A stretch of 20,936 bases of DNA, from positions 1 through 20,936 of IMG/VR virus record IMGVR_UViG_3300046000_007471; one strand, given 5' to 3'. A program made the translations under genes and the position numbers. Every line of letters starts with the position of its first letter. Positions within the stretch are counted from its first letter, which is position 1. A model generated the notes under the pieces. The model was not told the origin of the DNA, searched no databases, and worked only from the letters and a program-made list of their open reading frames with translations. Below are positions 2 to 20,936 of the stretch, piece after piece. The DNA is from a virus.

Positions 2-2560
2 AATAGTTTAGAGAGTGGGTATACTAATAAAAGTTTTTATTTCGATAATGATGAGCCTAAAAGTGTTACAAGTTATGAAACATTGTATAACAGTTATATA
101 GGTCAAAAAAATACATATCAAATAAAATCTAACGGTATTTTCGGTTCTAATAATGTTTTATCAAATACTGATGGTTTTTTTAACAGTCAAATAGAAAAAG
201 ATTTTACAGACATATCTAAAGGAAATGATTCATTTATTAGTAAACTAAGTGAATTTTTAAAACAGGAAAACACTCAAGTTAACATAGAATTAGTAGGGAC
301 TAGTTCTGCTCTCGATAGTGCAAATTATAATAAAAATTTATCGCAAACTAGAATAGATTCTGTTATTGAATATTTTAAAAACTATACAAATCCAAACACA
401 AATACATCTTTAAAAAATTTAGTAGATACTAGATTAAAATTTACAACTGTTTCTGAAGGGGAGGATGCGGTAATTTCAGTAAACGGTAGAACAATAAATT
501 GTAATCAATTAATCACTCAGGGTACAAGTAACAATAATAAAGATAAAAATATTTATTCTACAGATTCTATGGCGTGTAGAAGAGTAAGAATTGGTAAAGT
601 TACCGCAACCGAACCACCAACAAATAATAAAAGTAATGTTTTAGGACCTATTCAAACAAACCCTCAAAACGACAATAAAACAATAAACAATACGGATAAC
701 GTTACGGTTTCAAAACCACAATCAACAACAAGTATATCACAAAAATTAAAAGAAGGTTTGAGTAAAAAAGTACTTAGAAATCTTTTAACGGAGTGTGAAT
801 ATTTTGAAGTTATGGAAAAAACAACACCGTTTGTTTACGACTCAATAAAAGAAAAAATTAAATATTTTAATCCGGCATTTCATTCTATGACACCCGAAGG
901 ATTAAATGCTAGATTAACATTTTTGAATCAGTGCCTCAGACCTGGACAAACGATTCCTGTTATAGGTACTGATGGAAAACCGAAATTTAATGACGCGTCA
1001 AATACATCTTTTGGAGCACCTCCCGTTTTAATTTTAAGAATCGGTGATTTTTACCACACTAAGATTATTCCGAAAAGTATTGCATTTACTTATGACCCGT
1101 TGATTTACGATATGAACCCTGAAGGAATTGGATTACAACCTATGATTGCAAATGTTACAATGTCTTTTGATTTTATAGGTGGTCATGGTTTGGCAGGTCC
1201 TGTGGGGCAATTACAAAATGCGTTGTCGTTTAATTATTATGGTAATACAGAAATATATGATGAAAGAGCGGTGGCTACTGAGGATACAAGTGCTTTAGAT
1301 AAAGAAGTTTTTGACGCTATTGTTGAGGCTCAAGGTATAAAATCACCAATTGCGACAAATCCTAAAACTAATTTAGGAGGTACGACAATTGGTAATATAT
1401 TATCAACTAATGTAATTGAAGGTGGAGAAACTGGAGATATGACCTATCAAGCAATAATGGATAAACAAGTTGACCAACTTAAAGAATATTTTAGTAATGT
1501 TGTTAATCAAGCGGATTCGGTGGTTAAGACATATAATATGGGAGTATGGCAACTTATGACAAAAGATAGATTGTATACGACAGGTTTATTAAACGGCGAA
1601 CCACCAAATAATAATACCCCTATTTTTGGTTCATCTTCCGGTATTAGTAAAAAAATTGATGATTTATTTACATCATTTGTAAATGACATTAAAACCACCG
1701 ATGTTATAAACAATAATAATTCAATTATGTTTGGTTTGTATAAAACCACAAAATACAATAAAGAAATTCCTACAATTGAAAATAATTTTGTTAAATATGT
1801 GGAATCATTAAAGAGTGAATTTGAATCCACCGTTTTTGAAAAAAATCAAAATATTGTAAATCAAGAAGTTGATATGGTTCAAACATTTAGAAAATTAAAT
1901 GTTGTTACTAAAAAAACTGATGGTAAAATATTGGCGAACACTTCCGCATTTATATACAATGTAAGTGGAACTAGCGAAGTTACTCCACCAACCACACAAA
2001 CAAATACTTTAGGTGAATTAAGTAGTGATTACTCTTTAGCGTCAGATAAGTTAATGGATTATAATGATTTTTTAAAAAATAAAAAATTATTAGAAACAAC
2101 ATATGGACCAGAACCAGGAAAGTTCACTGCGTCCAGTGAAAAGTTTCAAGTACAATCTATAAATGAAAAAAGAATGTTTATGGTTATGGCTAGAATTTTT
2201 GAAAATAAAGATAAATTAGAAAAATTTAAAAGTACTGTTATAAGTACAGAAATTTCAAATGTACCAAAATTAAGAAAAACTTTTGACGAATTATGTGATA
2301 AATTTAAAGATTTAGTTTTGAACGAATTAAAAGCTGAAGAGAAAAAAATGAAAGATATTAAAGAAGATAAAGAGTATTTAAGTTACATTAATACTAATGT
2401 ATATTCTAAAGGTAAGACTAGAAAGTTTAATTATACCACAGTTCCTAATCAAACCACAAATAGTCAACAGATAACTTTAATAAAGAATGTTTACTCTGAC
2501 CAAAATGTTGATAATGATAATAAGACATTCAATGGTAAAATTAAGTTCAATAATAATTAA
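2..2560 (+). CDS. Large baseplate/tail protein with OmpA-like and tail-tube-like domains (5' end missing)
   Basis: The reading frame is open from base 2, so the gene starts before the window; the TTG at 83 is an internal codon. About 852 residues are visible. Roughly bases 190-600 encode an OmpA/MotB-like fold: a beta strand NIELVG, the helix signature YNKNLSQTRIDSVIEYF and the closing strand CRRVRIGKV, with a longer than usual insertion before that last strand. Bases about 1015-1200 read PPVLILRIGDFYHTKIIPKS followed by FTYDPLIYDMNPEGIG and ANVTMSFDF. This resembles the C-terminal half of contractile-injection-system tube/LysM baseplate proteins (Afp7-type). The C-terminal third is lysine/glutamate-rich and probably helical. 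It sits 2 bases before gp53 and is probably co-transcribed with it. By context it could start the tail tube or belong to the hub (gp48/gp54-like role). The OmpA call is moderately sure, the tube-domain call weaker, the exact role inferred. Confidence 0.6.
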   Translation, partial: NSLESGYTNKSFYFDNDEPKSVTSYETLYNSYIGQKNTYQIKSNGIFGSNNVLSNTDGFFNSQIEKDFTDISKGNDSFISKLSEFLKQENTQVNIELVGTSSALDSANYNKNLSQTRIDSVIEYFKNYTNPNTNTSLKNLVDTRLKFTTVSEGEDAVISVNGRTINCNQLITQGTSNNNKDKNIYSTDSMACRRVRIGKVTATEPPTNNKSNVLGPIQTNPQNDNKTINNTDNVTVSKPQSTTSISQKLKEGLSKKVLRNLLTECEYFEVMEKTTPFVYDSIKEKIKYFNPAFHSMTPEGLNARLTFLNQCLRPGQTIPVIGTDGKPKFNDASNTSFGAPPVLILRIGDFYHTKIIPKSIAFTYDPLIYDMNPEGIGLQPMIANVTMSFDFIGGHGLAGPVGQLQNALSFNYYGNTEIYDERAVATEDTSALDKEVFDAIVEAQGIKSPIATNPKTNLGGTTIGNILSTNVIEGGETGDMTYQAIMDKQVDQLKEYFSNVVNQADSVVKTYNMGVWQLMTKDRLYTTGLLNGEPPNNNTPIFGSSSGISKKIDDLFTSFVNDIKTTDVINNNNSIMFGLYKTTKYNKEIPTIENNFVKYVESLKSEFESTVFEKNQNIVNQEVDMVQTFRKLNVVTKKTDGKILANTSAFIYNVSGTSEVTPPTTQTNTLGELSSDYSLASDKLMDYNDFLKNKKLLETTYGPEPGKFTASSEKFQVQSINEKRMFMVMARIFENKDKLEKFKSTVISTEISNVPKLRKTFDELCDKFKDLVLNELKAEEKKMKDIKEDKEYLSYINTNVYSKGKTRKFNYTTVPNQTTNSQQITLIKNVYSDQNVDNDNKTFNGKIKFNNN

Positions 2561-2562
2561 TA

Positions 2563-2889
2563 ATGGCAAAAAGGCAAACATACGATAGATACGGAACTTT
2601 TCTTATTAACGGACAACAAACAGTCGTCCCTTATATTACTTTACCAAGTAAAACAACAGATAAGAGATATATCTATAAAGTAGACCAATCAAGATTAGAT
2701 AAAATCTCTCAACAGTTTTATGGTTCACCAACTTTTGGGTGGTTAATATTAATGGCTAATCCTCAATATGGTGGTCAAGAATGGAACATCCCTGATGGTG
2801 CGATATTGACAATACCTTTCCCACTTATAAGTTCTTTACAAGACTATAAAAGTCAATTAGATTTACATTTCTTCTACTATGGACGATAA
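2563..2889 (+). CDS. gp53: Baseplate wedge protein gp53-like (LysM fold)
   Basis: This 108-residue protein resembles T4 gp53, which joins neighbouring baseplate wedges and carries a LysM-like fold. A LysM-like stretch spans about residues 36-90: YKVDQSRLDKISQQFYG, then GWLILMANPQY and a closing PDGAILTIPFP, the usual 'asymmetric start, N-P-x-x, P-x-G-x-x-L-x-I-P' pattern. It is shorter than T4 gp53 (about 196 residues), so it is essentially the LysM core. The start follows the previous stop by 2 bases, and its last 11 bases overlap the start of the giant hub gene, which suggests translational coupling. In tailed phages this LysM fold is thought to be structural rather than a cell-wall binder. 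Confidence 0.85.
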   Translation: MAKRQTYDRYGTFLINGQQTVVPYITLPSKTTDKRYIYKVDQSRLDKISQQFYGSPTFGWLILMANPQYGGQEWNIPDGAILTIPFPLISSLQDYKSQLDLHFFYYGR

Positions 2890-5800
2890 TCAAGAAAACA
2901 TACTTGTCGATTTTGACGTTAATAATATTATTGTTGTTGACCCAAACAAAGTTGTTGATGAGAATGGTAGAGCCTCGGAACGTTTGATAAATCATGAGAA
3001 TTTGGTAATATACGCCAATCTTGAGTGTAAAGTTTTACCTAGAACTAAATTAATTTTAGGCTCTTCAAATACTGACAATGTCAGAACTATTTCTGTTGCG
3101 GAAATAAATTTTTTGAATCCAGGTAAAAAAACGTTTTTGGACAACTCTTATACTGATGATTTAACAGGTAAAGATATTCTTACTGGAAAAGGGACAAATC
3201 AATCAAATCCAAATAGTCCAACTAAGGATTTGAAAACTGATGAGTATTATTTAAAACAATCAACAACTACAGGAACTGCTGACGTTAAAACAACAGACAA
3301 TGGTTTATTGGGTATACGTTCAATTAGCGTTAGACAAAACACTAGTTTTTTACCAACAATAACCGTTAAAATGGAAGACGTTAGAGGTAGAGCATTATTT
3401 GAAAGTGGAGACAATTCACCGTATGCGTCTTTCTTTAATTTACCATATCCTTTATTTCATCTTACTTTAAAAGGGTATTATGGTAAAGCGATAAAGTTAC
3501 CTTTGATGTTAAAAGATTTTACCGCATCGTTTAATAGTGAAACTGCGAATTTTGATGTTACATGTGAATTTATTACTTATAAATTTAATGTGTTAAGTGA
3601 TATTTCGATGGGAAATGTTTTTGCAACACCTCACATGTATCAATCAAACGTTGAAACAAAGCCAAAGGTTGGAGGACCACAAACAAACCAACCAACAAAA
3701 AATAGTGTGGTTGAGTTAGGTTATGAAAAAATAAGGGAAATGTATAGTGAATACAAATCAAAAGGTATGATACCTGACGATTTTCCTGAAATAACTGTAG
3801 TACAGATGAAAAATAGAATTGATAATTTTATTAAAAATATTCTTAATTCATTTGAACAACAAAATTTAGACGCATTAACAAATTGTTCAAAATATCAAAC
3901 ACAAGTAGGTAATTTTAGAGGGGAAGTTTTAATTTATCAAGGTAGTTCATGGTTCAACAGATACATGGATACTGAAAATGCTTTTATAACCAATGACGGT
4001 CAAAAAGTTTATACGTTTAAAAAAGAATACAATCAAACAAAAAGACAAGACGCTAAAAACGAACTAAAAAAAATTGTTGAAAAGTATAATGAAATTTTAA
4101 ATAAAAATGAAACATTAGGTAATCCTGGTAGTTACACAATTAATGGGGATGAAAAAAAGGTTGAGTTAGGTAACAAAGTTAATTACAATGATTTTAGTGT
4201 TACGGATTTGAAAGTAGAAGATTTTGAATTATTGGAGACTTATCGACAAAGAAAAAAAATAACGGGAGATGTTAATCAAACACAACTTGACTTATTCAGA
4301 ATAGAACTTGAAGAAGAAAATATTGTAAGTAATTCAAGTATTAAATTAGAAGACGGTCAACCTGTATTGATAACGGATTATTTTATTTTTGAAGGGTTAA
4401 AGAGATTTGAAGGTATAATTAACGAAATGTTAAAGTCTGCAAAAGACAATAGAAACGCGATTGAAGAGGACTTGACACAAGCTTTATCGGAACAACTACA
4501 AAATAAATCTAACGGTATAGGTTTTGTGCCAACAATTAGAAATGTTTTGGCGGTTTTGTTTGCAAATGGTGAGGCTTTTTTACGTTTGATGGACGATGTT
4601 CATACTAAGGCGTGGGCTCAAAAAGATAATAAAATACGTAAGTCAATTATTTTTGACGCCAAAACAAATCCGGCTAGCTCAGAACCATCAAGTTCGGGTG
4701 GTAATGCTAAAATACCTGTATTTCCTTGGCCACAAATTTTAGTGAGTACAAGTGGTGATAAAGGTCAAGAATATTTTGAAGTGAAATATCCTGGTAGTCC
4801 CGAGATAATTGACCAAACACAGGCTTATCGTTATGACGTTTGGCCTGAAGTTGAATTTCTTGAAGAATTTATCAAAGGATTAACTCAGAGAACAACTTCA
4901 GTTGATTATGTTGAAACTTCAAATGAAGAAAGTGATATCAAAAGAGTAAGTTTAAATGCTATTGAATATCCAACATCTAATGTGATTTATAGTAATAAAG
5001 AAGAGACTAAATATTTTTTTGAAATATATGAAAGGATTTTATTATATTCATTTTTTTCTAAAATGGGAAGAACTAATAATAACACTGCGGACTCAAGTTC
5101 AATTTCAAACCTAATCGCCGAGATAGAAAAAACTAATATAGTTCAAAGTTTAGGTAATAACAATCCATTTTTAAGTGAAAAATTAAAAAACTATCCCTAC
5201 AATTCTTCAAATATTCTCGAGATATTAAAACAATACTCAAATCAAGGTGTTGGGGAAAGTTGGCAAAACTTTATTAGAGGTATATTCAATACGTCGTATA
5301 TTAAAAATTTAGTAGAAAATTCAGAATTCGAAATATTCAATATCGGTACTAATAAAATACAATTTTTAGGTAGAACAATAGATTTATTCAAAGTCAACAA
5401 TACGATATCTATTGAAGGTGAAGAAAAATTAGTTGAGTATTTGACGGGAAATTCAAAAAATCAAAAAACATTTGATTTAACGGATACATTCCCTTTTACA
5501 AACTTAAGTTGGGATAAGACAAACATGGCTGGTGTTTCATCGTTAGATTTATCGTCTTTGAATTTAGTTAGTAATTTAAATTTACCAATACCGTTTGCAT
5601 CTATCGGAGATTTTTTCCAAACTAGTAAAGTTATAAATTATAATAAAAATCTGAAAGTAATTTCAAATTTTTCAGGTCAAACATTAAACTCATTAGCTCC
5701 GAAACCATTCGCCAGTTTCAATTATCTAAGTTTAACAACTCCAAATTTATTAAATCAAAAACAAGAATTTAATATTTCCAAATTAAATGATTTTTATTTA

Positions 5801-8800
5801 AATAGGGTAAATAAACCTAATCAACAATTACCTACCGAAGGAACATTACTTTATAAAAATCATAATGGTGAGTTAACTGATTTACAAACGGTTTCAATTT
5901 TGAATACTCCTTATTTTATAAATTCTATACAAGATGGAGTAAATAAATTCAGAGATTATAATGAAAATCCATATGTTGCATCCGCTTTTTTATTTTTAAA
6001 CAGCTTACCAATTGCAACATTGAAAGAAAAGTATAAAACCTTCAATGAAGTATCAAATCCAAACGCGACTGAACCTCAAGATAATATAGAAGATTTAAAT
6101 TATATTTTTGCGACCTTAAAAAAATACGGAGCGATACATAAATTACCGTTGGCGTGGACGCTAAAAATGGGGTCGATATGGCATAGATATAAAAAATACG
6201 TTGAAAAAGGTGAGGATATTTTAAACACTTCTTGGTCAGGTTTTAGTTATATTAATAATTTTGACCCTACGACTAATGACCCAACAAAAGATTATGCGTT
6301 AACTCTTTCAGGGGGTAATGTTGATATTATTTTAGAAAAAAACTCAACATTAGGAGGTCAACAATACACTACAATTAACACCGGAGTTTATCCAAAATTA
6401 ATTAACGATTTTAATGTGTTTTATCAAGGATATCAAGTTTTTAATGGTTATACAAGTTCAGATATACAAAGTGGTATTACTTCAGGAGTTACAATTTTCA
6501 ATGTACCGACATCGAATTTAACATTTAGTAATGGTTATGATTTACAAAACTTGAATAGAGTTTTACGTATAACGCCTTGGTCTGTTTATGTTGACGATAT
6601 AAGTAAAAAATATTCATATTTACTACCCTCACACGGAAGTCAAATAAATCAAATTAAAGATGAATGTTTTGTAAATAATTTAAAAGTTACTGAAGTAACA
6701 GGAAACACCTCAGTTTATAATGGTTCAATTAGATTATTTTGGGCGGCACCAAATTATGGTTATTTTGATGTTAATGACATTGTTAAGCCATCTCCATCGG
6801 AGTATATGCAAAGGATTTTACCATTCACAAGTCAACAAAGAAACTTTACATTACAGGGGAGTCAATCAACATATAGTAAAATTGAAGATATCTTCGGTGT
6901 CTTCGAAAAAAATGTTTTAGATACTTTCGAAAAGAAATTTTTGGATTTTTCAAAATCAATTTATGACTACAAAGACCCGTTAGAAGGTAGTACAAAATCG
7001 TACGGTAATTTTCAAATGTTATTTACATCATTAATGAAAGTACCTTCAATTTCTGACGATTTAAGTTTGACTAATTATGATAGATTAATTTTTTTACAAA
7101 ATAGACAGATTATAAACTTTGGTAATATAATTAAAAGTTTCTTAGAGTATGATGTTTTGATAAAATTTGGTAACCCATCTAATTTTGATAGAAATTTATT
7201 TTATTCTTTTTCTAATGATGTAAATGAGATTGTAGACCCTTGGACTTGGGAATACTATAGTATTAACACACCAAACGCTTTACCTAACACAAGTGGAGTA
7301 CCTAATTTGGTTACTTCTAAACTAAACTACCCAAATGAATGGAAAACTTTGGAAACGTATGTTGGTTTTTCACAATTAAGTGGGATTACTTACACAAATA
7401 CAGGCTCAACAATTACCGATTTTTTTATAGATTTTAATATTGCATTTACTGAAAAAAATATTGTAAATTTTACACCGATAATAAAAATATATGCCACACA
7501 AAAACAAACTGACCCAAATTTAAATCCTATAACTTTCAAAACAAAAATGAGTGAATTTTTGGTTTCAAACGAAACTTTTGTAGGTAAAATTGTGAATAGT
7601 TTATTTACCAAATTAAATAAAGAATTGGATAACATTAAAATAAATCCTGAAAAAAATACTAAAACGGCGATTGAAGGTGAAACCCCAAAAGAACAACTAT
7701 GGGATATGTTCAAAGCAATTAACGATAAATGGATTGCGGGTAACGATTTTAAAAATAAAACATTGTTTGAAGATGTTTTACTTTTAGATAGAGCAAGTAG
7801 AAATGTTGGTGACATTATTTTGGTTGATATATATAAACTTTCTGAACTAATTGACCCTCAAACTTTGAATCCTAAAACTAATTTATTATATGTTGTATCA
7901 AGTATATTGACTGAAAATAGATTTCAGATGTTTAACGTTCCGGCATATGTTAATTTTTATAATGTACAAGATGCTACTAAAAATCCTAAACCAAGGTCAG
8001 ATGGAAGTACTCAAACGGCAAATGATTTGTTTGGAACATTTCTAAGTGTTGATACAAGAAATTCTTCCACTAAAATGGTTTGTTTTTATGTTGGTAAGTC
8101 AAGTGAATTTTTGGATTCACCAAAAACACAAACACAAAGAAAAAATGATACATTTTCATTAACACAAGTTTCTAATCATCCATTGGTGGAAAATTTATCG
8201 GACAAAAAAGATTGGGACAAATCCAATAAAGTGGTCGGTTTCAATGTTGACATCGGACCACAAAATCAAGGGGTATTTACCAGATTCTCAGTGTCTCAAA
8301 AGTCCGCAACATCAACTGCCGAGTCTTTACAAAGAATTTCGGAAATTGCGAATCAGGCAGGAAATAGAACTGTATCCACACAAAACCAATCTTTATTGGA
8401 CATTTATCAAACAAGAAGTTACACATGTGACATTAGTATGATGGGTAATGTTATGATTCAACCAATGATGTACTTTAACTTGAGATATGTACCTATGTTT
8501 TCAGGGTCATATATGATTACAACGGTAAATCATGAAATAGGACCTGGTAAATTTGAGACAACAATTCAAGGTGTAAGACAACCTACATTCAATTTACCAA
8601 AAATAACTGATTTCTTAATGTCGTTAAGAGCTAATTTAGTTCAAGCGATTATAGATAAAACTGCTCAAGCTAAACAAGAACAAACAAAGGATAGTCAAGG
8701 TAATTCTATTAGTAATAAAAACAAAACCGCATCTGATGCAAAAAAAGGTAAGAAATTAACAGAAGTTCAGGCTTGTACGCCAATTCCGAAATACTCAGAT

Positions 8801-9691
8801 TTCACGGTTTTAGACACTCCACCACAACCTACAACAGTTACAATTCAAGATATGAAAAATAGAGTTGGTGTAATAGCAAACAAATATCCTGTTAATGGTT
8901 CAAAAATGGCACCAGTTGTTTTTACAACAATGTACTTATGGTCAGGAACAACCACAGGATTTAGTGCGCTCGGAAATAATTTTGCCGGTATTGATATTAA
9001 CCAAGATTGGGTGACTCTTATCCCAACATACTTTACAAGTAAAAAATATTATTGTCTTAAAGGACAGTCCACACTTTTACCTTATGTAACGTTCCAAGAT
9101 GTTAATTCTCAAATTGAATTTTTATTTGCTTTTTTCAATAAAAAAATAAATAATGTAAGTTTACCTAATATTACACCTGAAAGTGTGGCTAAGTTTTGGG
9201 TAGAAAACAAAGATTTTGCGTCTAAATCAAACACTTACTATTCGACATTAGATTCTTCTGTAAGAATTGATATTGAAGCAAAAGTAAAAGAATCTTTAAA
9301 TTTATTCGGTTATTCAAACCCTGTCCCATCGCCAACACCAACCCCTACACCAACACCTTTACCATCTCCGGCAACATTGGTCATTATATCAACATCATCT
9401 CCAACACCTAATACAAGTGATGCTAGTTATATAAACATACAAATGCTTGGGGGTACTTACATTATTATGAAAATAAATGATGTTAATTTTGCGGTTAATA
9501 AAATAGGGACAACAACTTTCAAAGATAATGGTAATAATATCGTTAGTTCTATCCTTACTTCAGGTCCTAATCCACCATCGATATATCAAGTAAATGGACA
9601 GATACCTGGTACTTATTCTATTACTGTAAATTATTACGCCTTTGGTTTACTTAATCCAACAGTTCAACTTTCAGTTAACTTTAATCAGTAA
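2879..9691 (+). CDS. Giant baseplate hub-like protein (gp27/late-control-D-like region, glucosaminidase-like module, beta tip)
   Basis: The frame is uninterrupted for 2270 residues, far longer than T4 gp27 (391) or gp5 (575). About residues 140-245 form a beta-rich domain (ISVRQNTSFLPTITVKMEDV, then PYPLFHLTLKGYYGK). About 245-1600 is a long region I do not recognise. About 1630-1900 looks like a gp27/late-control-D-type hub domain: LLDRASRNVGDIILVD, SLLDIYQTRSYTCDISMMGN, YVPMFSGSYMITTVNHEIGP, ending TIQGVRQP. About 1960-2135 resembles a glucosaminidase fold around N2033-N2034 (NNFAGI), with a later QSTLLPYVTFQDVNSQIEFL segment. Residues 2148-2164 are a Pro/Thr/Ser linker, followed by an 80-residue Ig-like beta domain at the C-terminus. 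Its start overlaps gp53 by 11 bases. It most likely forms the central hub plus a needle or tip at the base of the tail. The hub role is fairly sure, the sub-domain calls less so. Confidence 0.65.
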   Translation: MDDNQENILVDFDVNNIIVVDPNKVVDENGRASERLINHENLVIYANLECKVLPRTKLILGSSNTDNVRTISVAEINFLNPGKKTFLDNSYTDDLTGKDILTGKGTNQSNPNSPTKDLKTDEYYLKQSTTTGTADVKTTDNGLLGIRSISVRQNTSFLPTITVKMEDVRGRALFESGDNSPYASFFNLPYPLFHLTLKGYYGKAIKLPLMLKDFTASFNSETANFDVTCEFITYKFNVLSDISMGNVFATPHMYQSNVETKPKVGGPQTNQPTKNSVVELGYEKIREMYSEYKSKGMIPDDFPEITVVQMKNRIDNFIKNILNSFEQQNLDALTNCSKYQTQVGNFRGEVLIYQGSSWFNRYMDTENAFITNDGQKVYTFKKEYNQTKRQDAKNELKKIVEKYNEILNKNETLGNPGSYTINGDEKKVELGNKVNYNDFSVTDLKVEDFELLETYRQRKKITGDVNQTQLDLFRIELEEENIVSNSSIKLEDGQPVLITDYFIFEGLKRFEGIINEMLKSAKDNRNAIEEDLTQALSEQLQNKSNGIGFVPTIRNVLAVLFANGEAFLRLMDDVHTKAWAQKDNKIRKSIIFDAKTNPASSEPSSSGGNAKIPVFPWPQILVSTSGDKGQEYFEVKYPGSPEIIDQTQAYRYDVWPEVEFLEEFIKGLTQRTTSVDYVETSNEESDIKRVSLNAIEYPTSNVIYSNKEETKYFFEIYERILLYSFFSKMGRTNNNTADSSSISNLIAEIEKTNIVQSLGNNNPFLSEKLKNYPYNSSNILEILKQYSNQGVGESWQNFIRGIFNTSYIKNLVENSEFEIFNIGTNKIQFLGRTIDLFKVNNTISIEGEEKLVEYLTGNSKNQKTFDLTDTFPFTNLSWDKTNMAGVSSLDLSSLNLVSNLNLPIPFASIGDFFQTSKVINYNKNLKVISNFSGQTLNSLAPKPFASFNYLSLTTPNLLNQKQEFNISKLNDFYLNRVNKPNQQLPTEGTLLYKNHNGELTDLQTVSILNTPYFINSIQDGVNKFRDYNENPYVASAFLFLNSLPIATLKEKYKTFNEVSNPNATEPQDNIEDLNYIFATLKKYGAIHKLPLAWTLKMGSIWHRYKKYVEKGEDILNTSWSGFSYINNFDPTTNDPTKDYALTLSGGNVDIILEKNSTLGGQQYTTINTGVYPKLINDFNVFYQGYQVFNGYTSSDIQSGITSGVTIFNVPTSNLTFSNGYDLQNLNRVLRITPWSVYVDDISKKYSYLLPSHGSQINQIKDECFVNNLKVTEVTGNTSVYNGSIRLFWAAPNYGYFDVNDIVKPSPSEYMQRILPFTSQQRNFTLQGSQSTYSKIEDIFGVFEKNVLDTFEKKFLDFSKSIYDYKDPLEGSTKSYGNFQMLFTSLMKVPSISDDLSLTNYDRLIFLQNRQIINFGNIIKSFLEYDVLIKFGNPSNFDRNLFYSFSNDVNEIVDPWTWEYYSINTPNALPNTSGVPNLVTSKLNYPNEWKTLETYVGFSQLSGITYTNTGSTITDFFIDFNIAFTEKNIVNFTPIIKIYATQKQTDPNLNPITFKTKMSEFLVSNETFVGKIVNSLFTKLNKELDNIKINPEKNTKTAIEGETPKEQLWDMFKAINDKWIAGNDFKNKTLFEDVLLLDRASRNVGDIILVDIYKLSELIDPQTLNPKTNLLYVVSSILTENRFQMFNVPAYVNFYNVQDATKNPKPRSDGSTQTANDLFGTFLSVDTRNSSTKMVCFYVGKSSEFLDSPKTQTQRKNDTFSLTQVSNHPLVENLSDKKDWDKSNKVVGFNVDIGPQNQGVFTRFSVSQKSATSTAESLQRISEIANQAGNRTVSTQNQSLLDIYQTRSYTCDISMMGNVMIQPMMYFNLRYVPMFSGSYMITTVNHEIGPGKFETTIQGVRQPTFNLPKITDFLMSLRANLVQAIIDKTAQAKQEQTKDSQGNSISNKNKTASDAKKGKKLTEVQACTPIPKYSDFTVLDTPPQPTTVTIQDMKNRVGVIANKYPVNGSKMAPVVFTTMYLWSGTTTGFSALGNNFAGIDINQDWVTLIPTYFTSKKYYCLKGQSTLLPYVTFQDVNSQIEFLFAFFNKKINNVSLPNITPESVAKFWVENKDFASKSNTYYSTLDSSVRIDIEAKVKESLNLFGYSNPVPSPTPTPTPTPLPSPATLVIISTSSPTPNTSDASYINIQMLGGTYIIMKINDVNFAVNKIGTTTFKDNGNNIVSSILTSGPNPPSIYQVNGQIPGTYSITVNYYAFGLLNPTVQLSVNFNQ
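9320..9370 (+). repeat. Pro-Thr/Pro-Ser codon repeat (interdomain linker)
   Basis: This is a low-complexity run of near-identical CCN-ACN codon pairs coding for PVPSPTPTPTPTPLPSP, residues 2148-2164 of the giant hub protein. It marks a flexible or extended linker between the glucosaminidase-like module and the C-terminal beta domain. The repeated hexamers could change copy number by slippage without breaking the frame. Confidence 0.75.
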
Positions 9692-9731: not shown

Positions 9732-9956
9732 ATGAATACTAAGTTAATATTAGATAATTATTTAGGTAAAAATACCAGAACCACTGAAAAAGATTTAGGT
9801 GACGGTTCAAAACAAGTTTGTGACTTAGACACAGGTGAGTGTTATGTAATAAGAATGAAAGATGGATTGATTGAAAGAGTAGATAATACATTACAAAGAA
9901 ATAAAAAAATCCAAGTTGAAACAACAACAGGAATTAAACAACTTTTAAATGGATAA
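9732..9956 (+). CDS. Small hypothetical protein, 74 residues
   Basis: I do not recognise this protein. The ATG at 9732 is preceded by an A-rich stretch, and the gene begins 40 bases after the giant hub gene ends. The product is short, charged and soluble-looking, with no signal peptide or membrane segment. The middle has a compact pattern likely to be beta hairpins (DLGDGSKQVCDLDTGECYVI) with two cysteines eight residues apart, followed by a basic segment. Its stop overlaps the start of the next gene by 8 bases, so the two are probably translated together. The clean spacing and overlap support a real gene. Nothing in the sequence tells the role; by location it could be a minor virion or assembly protein. 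Confidence 0.6.
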   Translation: MNTKLILDNYLGKNTRTTEKDLGDGSKQVCDLDTGECYVIRMKDGLIERVDNTLQRNKKIQVETTTGIKQLLNG

Positions 9957-10611
9957 TAAGATGAAAATAGATGATAAAATCATTTCTGAATTAAGGCGTT
10001 ATAATAGTATTAACAAATATATTACTGAACAAGATGCTACTTTACCTCCACCTCCAAATGACGCACCTCCAGTTGATGCGGGTTTAACCCCACCACCTGC
10101 GGATATGGGGGCGACTCCACCACCCGCACCTGTAACAGGGGGTACAACGGTTGATATTGAATCAGACCCTGATGTTGAAAAAATTGGTGATGAAAAAGAT
10201 GGGAACAAAGAAGAACTTGAAATTACTGATTTGGTAACATCACAAAAAAATGCTGAAACAAAACAAGAAGAATACTTCGAATCATTATTCAAACATATTG
10301 AATCGTTAGAAGGAAAACTTTCAGAAATGGATAATATTGTTAATAAATTAAATGATTTAGAAAATAAAATAGAAAAATATAGAGTTAAAACACCTGAAGA
10401 AAAATTAGAATTAAGAAGTTTAGATTCAGGACCTTTTAACCAAAAACTTACAGATTTCTTTGACGATAAACAAGAAGATATGAAAAAAACGGGTAAGAAT
10501 GAATATATCTTAACTCAAGATGAAGTTCAAGATTATTCACCTTTGGAAATTAAAAAAAGTTTTAGAAACTTTGAACAAAATCCTGTTAGTGACTACCAAA
10601 ATATTAAATAA
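9949..10611 (+). CDS. Hypothetical proline-rich, coiled-coil acidic protein, 220 residues
   Basis: No family is recognised. The N-terminal ~27 residues are probably helical and end KYITEQDA. Next comes a proline-rich segment with imperfect repeats (about residues 32-65: LPPPPNDAPP, LTPPPADMGATPPPAPV). An acidic stretch and a probable coiled coil follow at about residues 100-150 (SLFKHIESLEGKLSEM, NKLNDLENKIEKYRV), then a charged C-terminus. An alternative in-frame ATG lies at 9961. ITE-Q fits the (I/L)-x-E rule of T4-type prohead protease sites, which would make the first residues a propeptide, but this is only a hint. The gene overlaps the preceding one by 8 bases and ends just before an intrinsic terminator. 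A structural or assembly role is a guess from composition and context. Confidence 0.65.
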   Translation: MDNKMKIDDKIISELRRYNSINKYITEQDATLPPPPNDAPPVDAGLTPPPADMGATPPPAPVTGGTTVDIESDPDVEKIGDEKDGNKEELEITDLVTSQKNAETKQEEYFESLFKHIESLEGKLSEMDNIVNKLNDLENKIEKYRVKTPEEKLELRSLDSGPFNQKLTDFFDDKQEDMKKTGKNEYILTQDEVQDYSPLEIKKSFRNFEQNPVSDYQNIK

Positions 10612-19245: not shown

Positions 19246-19704
19246 ATGGCTCAAGCTCAAACATATGGTATTAATTTTCCCTTTAGGGATTCTTTTGATG
19301 GGAATTATTTGGACTTATCTGAAACTTCACAAGAAGAGATTAGAACTGATTTAATACATTTATTATTAACAAGAAAAGGAACTAGATATTATTTACCTGA
19401 TTTTGGTACTAGATTATATGAATATATTTTTGAACCTCTTGACGGACCTACTTTTTCAGAGATTGAAACAGAAATAAGGGATTCTGTTGGAGAATATATA
19501 CCGGGTATAACAATTACTAGTATTCAAATAACAGACGCGTCTTTAGGTGAGGAAGATAAAGGTACATTCATTAACGATAATGACGAAAGAATTTATAGAG
19601 TTCCTGGAATAGGTACTAAAGAACATACCGCAAAAATTAAAATCGATTACGTAATTAACAGTGATGTGTTCAATGCAAGCGATTTCGTAATTATTAATAT
19701 TTAA
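19246..19704 (+). CDS. gp25: Baseplate wedge protein gp25-like
   Basis: gp25 is a small wedge protein that nucleates sheath assembly at the baseplate; relatives occur in all contractile tails and in type VI secretion (TssE). The 152-residue product, somewhat longer than T4 gp25 (132), carries the GPW/gp25 signature: EIRTDLIHLLLTRKGTRYY followed by LPDFGTRLYEYIFEPLDGP, with the conserved leucine-rich helix, the basic K/R-G-T-R turn and the P-x-F-G-x-x-L motif. Further helix and strands (FSEIETEIRDSVGEYIPGIT, AKIKIDYVI) fit the fold. A short acidic insertion (LGEEDKGTFINDNDER) accounts for the extra length. It is 5 bases upstream of gp6, the wedge partner it touches in the T4 baseplate. Confidence 0.92.
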   Translation: MAQAQTYGINFPFRDSFDGNYLDLSETSQEEIRTDLIHLLLTRKGTRYYLPDFGTRLYEYIFEPLDGPTFSEIETEIRDSVGEYIPGITITSIQITDASLGEEDKGTFINDNDERIYRVPGIGTKEHTAKIKIDYVINSDVFNASDFVIINI

Positions 19705-19709
19705 AAGAA

Positions 19710-20936
19710 ATGGCAAATAAGAAAATATCTTACACAACTCGTGATTTTCAGTCAATCAGAACTGAACTTATAAATTTTACAAAAACTTACTATCCTGATT
19801 TAATTGAAAACTTTAATGATGCGTCAGTTTTTTCTGCCTTGTTAGATTTAAACGCTGCGGTTACCGATAATTTACAGTTCAATATAGATAGAAGTATACA
19901 AGAAACTGTTTTACAATATGCACAACAACGTTCTTCAATATATAATATAGCTAGAAATTATGGATTAAAGATACCTGGACAAAGACCTTCAGTTTCATTA
20001 GTTGATTTTTCAATTACTGTTCCTGCGTTTGGTGATAAAGAAGATTTGAGGTATTGTGGTATTTTGAGAAGAGGTTCACAAGTAAATGGTGGTGGGCAAG
20101 TCTTTGAAACTGTTTATGATATAGATTTCGCATCGCCAGTAAATTCCGAAGGTTACCCTAACAGATTAAAAATACCTAATTTTGATGCCAACAATAAATT
20201 ACTTAACTACACAATCTTAAAAAGAGAAACTGTAGTTAATGGATTAACTAAAGTATTCAAAAGAGTTATCACACCAAATGATGTAAGACCTTTTTTTGAG
20301 CTTTTTTTACCTGAAAAAAATGTCTTAGGTGTTACAAGTGTACTTTTAAAAGATGGTACACAATACGCTGATGTACCAACAGTACAAGAATTTTTAGGTG
20401 CTGATGATAGATGGTATGAAGTTAAAGCTTTAATTGAAGATAGAGTTTTTATTGAAGACCCTACAAAAGTTTCAGACCAACCTGGTACAAAAGTGGGTAA
20501 GTATATTCAAACAAATACTAAATTTATAACTGAGTATACTCCTGAAGGATTTTTAAAAATGACTTTTGGAGGAGGGTCACAATCGGCAGATGAACAATTA
20601 CGAGAATTTGCAAGAAATGGGTTCAAATTAGATTTATACAAATACTCAAATAACCTTGGATTAGGAAGTACTTTGAAAGGTAATACAACTCTATTTGTAC
20701 AATATAGAATAGGTGGTGGTATTAATAGTAATTTAGGTGTGAATGCAATTACTCAAATTGGTACTATAAGTTTTTCAGTAAATGGGCCTTCAGATACTGT
20801 TAATACGAGTGTTATAAATTCTTTAAGATGTACAAATGTTGTTGCCGCAATTGGAGGGGCTAACGCTCCAACAATAGAAGAAGTTAGAAATTTAGTAGCG
20901 TTTAATTTTGCGGCTCAAAACAGAGCGGTAACGGTT
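19710..20936 (+). CDS. gp6: Baseplate wedge protein gp6-like (baseplate J family), 3' end missing
   Basis: An open frame of 409 codons runs from the ATG at 19710 to the last base of the window without a stop. It is the N-terminal part of a gp6/baseplate J-like wedge protein, which in T4 (660 residues) forms the ring of the baseplate together with gp7, gp25 and gp53. The N-terminal helices match the family: TTRDFQSIRTELINFTKTYY, NDASVFSALLDLNAAVTDNL, then YAQQRSSIYNIARNYGLKIP. A beta-rich middle follows (SLVDFSITVPAFG, ILRRGSQVNGGGQVFE). Near the window end, TIEEVRNLVAFN with QNRAVTV corresponds to the conserved 'E-x-x-R ... R-A-V-T' segment of baseplate J proteins. Spacing from gp25 (5 bases) implies co-translation in a wedge operon. 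Confidence 0.88.
   Translation, partial: MANKKISYTTRDFQSIRTELINFTKTYYPDLIENFNDASVFSALLDLNAAVTDNLQFNIDRSIQETVLQYAQQRSSIYNIARNYGLKIPGQRPSVSLVDFSITVPAFGDKEDLRYCGILRRGSQVNGGGQVFETVYDIDFASPVNSEGYPNRLKIPNFDANNKLLNYTILKRETVVNGLTKVFKRVITPNDVRPFFELFLPEKNVLGVTSVLLKDGTQYADVPTVQEFLGADDRWYEVKALIEDRVFIEDPTKVSDQPGTKVGKYIQTNTKFITEYTPEGFLKMTFGGGSQSADEQLREFARNGFKLDLYKYSNNLGLGSTLKGNTTLFVQYRIGGGINSNLGVNAITQIGTISFSVNGPSDTVNTSVINSLRCTNVVAAIGGANAPTIEEVRNLVAFNFAAQNRAVTV

Follow-up and report, generated by a model that had tools for sequence, protein, structure and literature searches.

A candidate baseplate hub of 2270 residues in T4-type phages, with two predicted barrels separated by a large conserved insert

The baseplate hub gp27 of phage T4 is a 44-kDa protein whose two barrels (residues 2-111 and 207-239 plus 307-368) lie ~95 residues apart (PMC3004832). 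Hubs that carry further domains have been described. Gp15 of Anabaena phage A-1(L), ~900 aa long, contains lysozyme, endoglucanase and C-terminal peptidase domains, and activity was measured for the endoglucanase and the peptidase (PMC10966104). Deep-Blue Gp189 and Vp4 Gp110 (NlpC/P60) are hub-lysin fusions with bacteriolytic activity (PMC11406892). The phiKZ protein gp181 is a 246-kDa needle-like cell-puncturing device, putatively a trimer, for which lytic activity was measured (PMC5380687).

A linear virus record of 20,936 bases (the window) was analysed here, in which one gene encodes a chain of 2270 residues. This chain is likely to be a gp27-type baseplate hub of a T4-type contractile tail, with its barrels split by a large outward insert and with a GH73-like module as a cap. 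The features are listed in Table 1.

Table 1. Features of the giant hub gene and its baseplate neighbours in the window
Feature	Residues	Position (nt)	Strand	Basis
Upstream baseplate protein, C-terminal part, with OmpA-like peptidoglycan-binding domain		2..2560	+	PF00691, E=2.2e-5
gp53-like wedge protein		2563..2889	+	phrog_7145, E=1.8e-6
Giant hub ORF	2270 aa	2879..9691	+	Uninterrupted, ATG start; related full-length ORFs exist
Hub barrel 1, tube-like beta-barrel	~37-240	2987..3598	+	Fold matches
Inter-barrel insert, ~1,540 aa	~241-1784	3599..8230	+	Between the two barrels
Hub barrel 2, late-control-D/gp27-like	~1785-1903	8231..8587	+	Fold matches
GH73-like module (glucosaminidase/FlgJ fold)	~1987-2146	8837..9316	+	Fold matches
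Pro/Thr-rich linker NPVPSPTPTPTPTPLPSP		9317..9421	+	Sequence
Optional C-terminal Ig/FnIII-like domain	~2182-2270	9422..9688	+	Fold matches
gp25-like baseplate wedge protein		19246..19704	+	PF04965, E=5e-11
gp6-like wedge protein, cut by record end		19710..20936	+	tblastn to annotated baseplate wedge proteins

Family and gene neighbourhood of the giant open reading frame

The first-pass annotation had described this gene as encoding a giant single-chain hub, and both parts of that description were supported: the ORF is intact from its ATG and has full-length relatives, and the chain has two predicted hub barrels and a position after gp53. Searches of IMG/VR yielded 228 related stretches with the single sequence as query and at least 589 among 599 candidates with a 30-sequence profile. 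Hundreds of related viral contigs encode the giant hub. The retrieved loci contained 112 full-length ORFs of 2016-2594 aa, and the size is thus a trait of the whole lineage. Since relatives of similar full length are present on many independent contigs, the ORF is neither a chance product nor an assembly fusion, and an assembly artefact was ruled out as its source. A single in-frame TAG was seen inside the hub gene of one relative (L149:2855-2857); nine adjoining genes of that locus, which match window genes, had none.

Used as a single query against Pfam, PHROGs and PDB sequences, the protein gave no credible match, nor did profiles of each half against the PDB, and the family had no PHROG hit. 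No relative was found when three family members were compared by tblastn with 50,697 phage records, by a profile search of pT24, two phages of more than 600 kb, immuto, Mel-JY01 and LR756508, or in GTDB genome contigs searched for a host link. Comparison of chain segments with hhalign found no internal duplication. The best NrdA matches of the window were phages of Tenacibaculum and Cellulophaga, and the host is therefore probably a member of the Bacteroidota.

T4-type genes in the window comprised gp53-like, SSB, UvsX, exonuclease-like, ribonucleotide reductase, gp25 and gp6 genes. The first 11 nt of the hub gene overlap the end of the gp53 gene, and gp53 lies directly upstream of the hub in 124 of 157 loci. 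The order OmpA-domain protein, gp53, hub, 74-aa protein, 220-aa protein and gp32 is kept between neighbours in 118-140 of these loci. The 74-aa (9732-9956) and 220-aa (9949-10611) proteins follow the hub in 138-140 of the 157, and the former is highly conserved (62-84% in sampled relatives). The PF00691 match in the upstream protein sits just under Pfam's cut-off. Full-length relatives of this protein mostly measure ~1530-1720 aa, with a few reaching 2036 aa, and its conserved C-terminal stretch gave the impression of a tube-initiator barrel.

A 208-kb relative (G001) extended this order upstream: sheath, a 273-aa protein, tube, a hub subunit (phrog_150), a 615-aa protein, the OmpA-domain protein, gp53 and the hub. 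The 615-aa protein was read as a tape measure from its own sequence and from the annotated tape measure similarly placed in immuto. The gp6-homologous ORF of G001 matched phrog_219 (E=5e-24). After gp6 this genome encodes two proteins that are unusual company for baseplate genes: one of 1845 aa (L165:10434-15971) has several hydrophobic stretches resembling membrane segments, and one of 303 aa (L165:16046-16957) is alpha/beta-hydrolase-like and has hydrophobic segments at its N-terminus. Elsewhere in G001, a 367-aa protein with a papain-family cysteine protease domain (L168:6620-7723; PF00112, E=1.6e-5) adjoins a 2047-aa repeat-rich protein. At L167:5440-9240 a tail sheath of 1266 aa was found, with its best sheath-domain match C-terminal and seemingly a very long N-terminal extension. 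In Mel-JY01 the position of the OmpA-domain protein, immediately ahead of the gp53-like gene, is occupied by a 2255-aa gene (L181:15572-22339).

Predicted barrels and the insert between them

Two AlphaFold2 half-models (N-half and C-half) were built from 78-sequence alignments, with mean pLDDT of 74.8 and 73.0, and each barrel comes from a different half-model. Foldseek against the PDB gave no match below E=0.001 for either half-model, and the hub, GH73-like and Ig assignments are accordingly made at fold level and are of moderate strength. They gain credibility from the domain order and the genomic context.

Barrel 1 matched VgrG1 (4mtk residues 5-94; Z 8.4 over 90 residues, 3.0 Å) and the Milano hub (8fqc_U1 residues 3-127; Z 8.3 over 99 residues, 2.9 Å), as well as the Mu and PVC hubs and many tail-tube and hub chains (Z 6.8-8.4, moderate). 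All four hub matches fall in the N-terminal barrel of the hub chain. Flagellin-helix matches to residues ~280-600 tie with these Z values and were treated as nonspecific. Barrel 2 matched the pyocin R2 hub (6u5h; Z 9.9 over 91 residues, 3.0 Å), the Algoriphagus eCIS hub (7aef_q; Z 9.7 over 72 residues, rmsd 1.5 Å) and the hubs of Pam3, diffocin, A-1(L) and P1. In 13 long relatives Phage_GPD (PF05954) gave a single hit, weak and below cut-off (E=0.012), which maps by coordinates to about barrel 2 of a 2460-aa hub ORF; the hub model PF09097 had no hit in long relatives. The final hairpin of barrel 2 aligned with the 671-aa protein of Mel-JY01 (score 29.1 against a shuffled maximum of 17.6) and marginally with the immuto protein (22.6 against 21.2). 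Barrel 1 aligned with neither protein better than shuffled controls in hhalign. Mean pairwise identity within the family is 55% for barrel 1 and 61% for barrel 2.

The insert was modelled as long helices (~280-600), a mixed region (600-1000) and a confident alpha/beta region (1076-1576). Residues 1577-1784 were poorly modelled, so the stretch assigned to the insert may include the first strands of barrel 2. Its length is 1451-1735 aa in 78 relatives and its mean pairwise identity is 43%, a value below those of the two barrels and above the 24% of the GH73-like module. It had no match among Pfam, PHROG and PDB sequences. Matches to the Ig domain crowded the structural hit list of the C-half, and the lack of matches for residues 1076-1576 is therefore no evidence of a new fold.

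These results redraw the layout first proposed for the chain. A gp27/late-control-D-like region had been placed at residues 1630-1900; it is present, narrowed to barrel 2, but is not the only hub region, as barrel 1 lies near the N-terminus. The ~1400 residues that had been left unassigned ahead of a hub are instead ~1,540 residues inserted between two hub barrels.

If the chain assembles as gp27 does, three copies would build a torus, with the two tube-like barrels of each copy giving it pseudo-sixfold symmetry and prolonging the tail tube. In place of the ~95-residue linker domain of gp27 there would be a folded module of ~1,500 residues. This insert most likely points outward from the ring, where it would serve as a built-in collar that links the hub with the wedges (gp6/gp25/gp53), and the GH73-like module would lie distal to barrel 2, facing the cell wall. 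The hub appears to have been stretched mainly by a conserved block placed between ring-forming domains. Prediction and synteny together support the two barrels, their separation, the GH73-like fold and its loss of Glu, the conservation of the insert and the gene order.

We also considered that the chain might be a giant trimeric puncturing needle like phiKZ gp181, with a lysozyme-superfamily module near its C-terminus, and not a ring-forming hub. The size and layout are strikingly alike (2237 aa, SLT domain at 1885-1978). Against this, no sequence relation to gp181 was detected (hhalign probability 0.1; gp181/phrog_3201), the insert is flanked on either side by a predicted hub-type barrel, and the catalytic residue of the GH73-like module is mostly lost. 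On balance a needle is improbable.

C-terminal modules and the search for a spike

The GH73-like module matched Listeria Auto (3fi7; Z 8.0 over 127 residues) and a Sphingomonas A1 hydrolase (3k3t; Z 7.9 over 129 residues), both at borderline Z. At the position of the catalytic Glu this virus has Trp2021 (TGG, 8939-8941); the column was set by motif alignment. Glu occupies it in 9 of 78 relatives, and most have Arg, Asn, Lys, Ser or another residue instead. Asn2034, which belongs to the NNFAGI-like motif, is invariant (78/78), and relatives such as L106 and L111 carry the GH73-type pattern LESG...ENNFAGI. The wall-enzyme-like module of the first-pass annotation is therefore recognisable as a fold, with Trp in place of its catalytic Glu. 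Given the loss of Glu in this virus and most relatives, the module probably binds peptidoglycan or caps the hub there; a tail-lysozyme role is possible in the minority that keeps Glu. Lysozyme activity of the module in this virus as well, by way of another residue, would fit the predicted fold, the invariant Asn and the Glu of the nine relatives, yet is unlikely in view of the residues found at the catalytic position and of a sequence identity that is the lowest among the recognised domains. The loss of Glu in most members raises the question of how such phages cross peptidoglycan, to which the OmpA-like domain encoded by the adjoining baseplate gene may supply part of an answer.

The beta tip that had been proposed for the end of the chain corresponds to one Ig/FnIII-like domain; it is not a gp5-type spike, and it is absent in 44 of 78 relatives (20 or fewer residues past 2146). 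The chain models showed no recognisable OB-fold or beta-helix in a list of fold matches that was filled by the Ig domain, and the gap between barrel 2 and the GH73-like module is only ~83 residues. For these reasons the proposal that hub, spike/lysozyme and tip are fused in one chain is unsupported; what was recognised is the barrels, a GH73-like module that in most members lacks the catalytic Glu, and the optional Ig domain.

Separate spike or gp27 genes were sought with Pfam models for gp5, gp27 and spike proteins (PF06714, PF09097, PF04717, PF05488, PF18352, PF05954) in the 13 long relatives, which are possibly incomplete records, and none was found above cut-off. These models barely detect the giant hub itself, which limits their negatives. 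A weak Gp5_OB match in G001 (E 0.007, below cut-off) lies inside the 1845-aa ORF with membrane-like segments, and the same search gave comparable signals in control genomes. No T4 portal hit was found in G001; this genome may therefore be incomplete, and a missing spike or gp5 there proves nothing. The lack of a gp5 inside the 20.9-kb linear record likewise says little. It is doubtful that the baseplate is a spike-less one of T4 type, in which the insert and the degenerate GH73-like cap replace the gp5-type spike/lysozyme and the hub-wedge connectors; were it so, the central apparatus would be a single chain of ~250 kDa.

A hub polyprotein that is processed in the virion to release the insert as a baseplate protein of its own has a precedent in T4 gp5, which is cleaved during maturation (PMC3004832). 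The insert, however, is in frame and of near-constant length in 78 relatives, the sole interrupted copy found (L149) has just one in-frame TAG, and we regard cleavage as very unlikely. A tape measure was rejected on the separate 615-aa gene that reads as one, two upstream of gp53 in the 208-kb relative, and a tail fibre is opposed by the gp53-adjacent position and the hub barrels.

Comparison with known hubs

If the chain is a gp27-type hub, as we favour, giant proteins now listed as uncharacterised gain a likely identity, in a lineage that is widespread among environmental T4-type phages. Contractile injection machines have the gp27-type hub as a conserved component, and the giant hub shows how far that component can be rebuilt. 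It also raises the structural question of what surrounds the hub, and whether there is any spike at all.

Two BFVD entries matched the predicted C-terminal half: A0A6J5L837 from an uncultured Caudovirales phage (E 1.8e-67, 31% identity) and A0A8S5LAH1 ('Lysozyme', Myoviridae sp. ctPuP5; E 1.1e-15, 19% identity). Both are uncharacterised database entries. The cultured Flavobacterium phage immuto, which shares the gene neighbourhood of the giant hub, is arranged comparably: its gp53-like gene is followed by a 938-aa protein (gp033) with VanY at its C-terminal end (E 6.6e-10); in the cultured phage Mel-JY01 a 671-aa protein follows the gp53-like gene. In immuto gp033 (a hub by position), Deep-Blue Gp189 and Vp4 Gp110 the hub is followed by a C-terminal wall enzyme, and these fusions of 746-938 aa are without a giant inter-barrel insert.

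Like phiKZ gp181, the giant hub is one chain that bears a lysozyme-superfamily module close to its C-terminus; it differs from gp181 in the loss of the catalytic Glu and in having no detectable sequence relation. It shares with A-1(L) gp15 the presence of extra domains both inserted into and appended to the hub barrels, but its insert of ~1,540 aa is without a recognised enzyme and its C-terminal enzyme fold is degenerate. As in T4 gp27, Mu gp44 and the N-terminal half of VgrG, two tube-like beta-barrels are predicted per chain, and as in T4 the baseplate gene neighbourhood includes gp53, gp25 and gp6. Unlike gp27 (~390 aa, about five-fold shorter), it has ~1,540 residues in place of ~95 between its barrels, and a GH73-like module and an Ig domain after them. 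Because hub-hydrolase chains and gp181 are already known, the giant hub is an unusual version of a known part and not a new machine; what is new is the size of the insert, its constancy and its position between the hub barrels.
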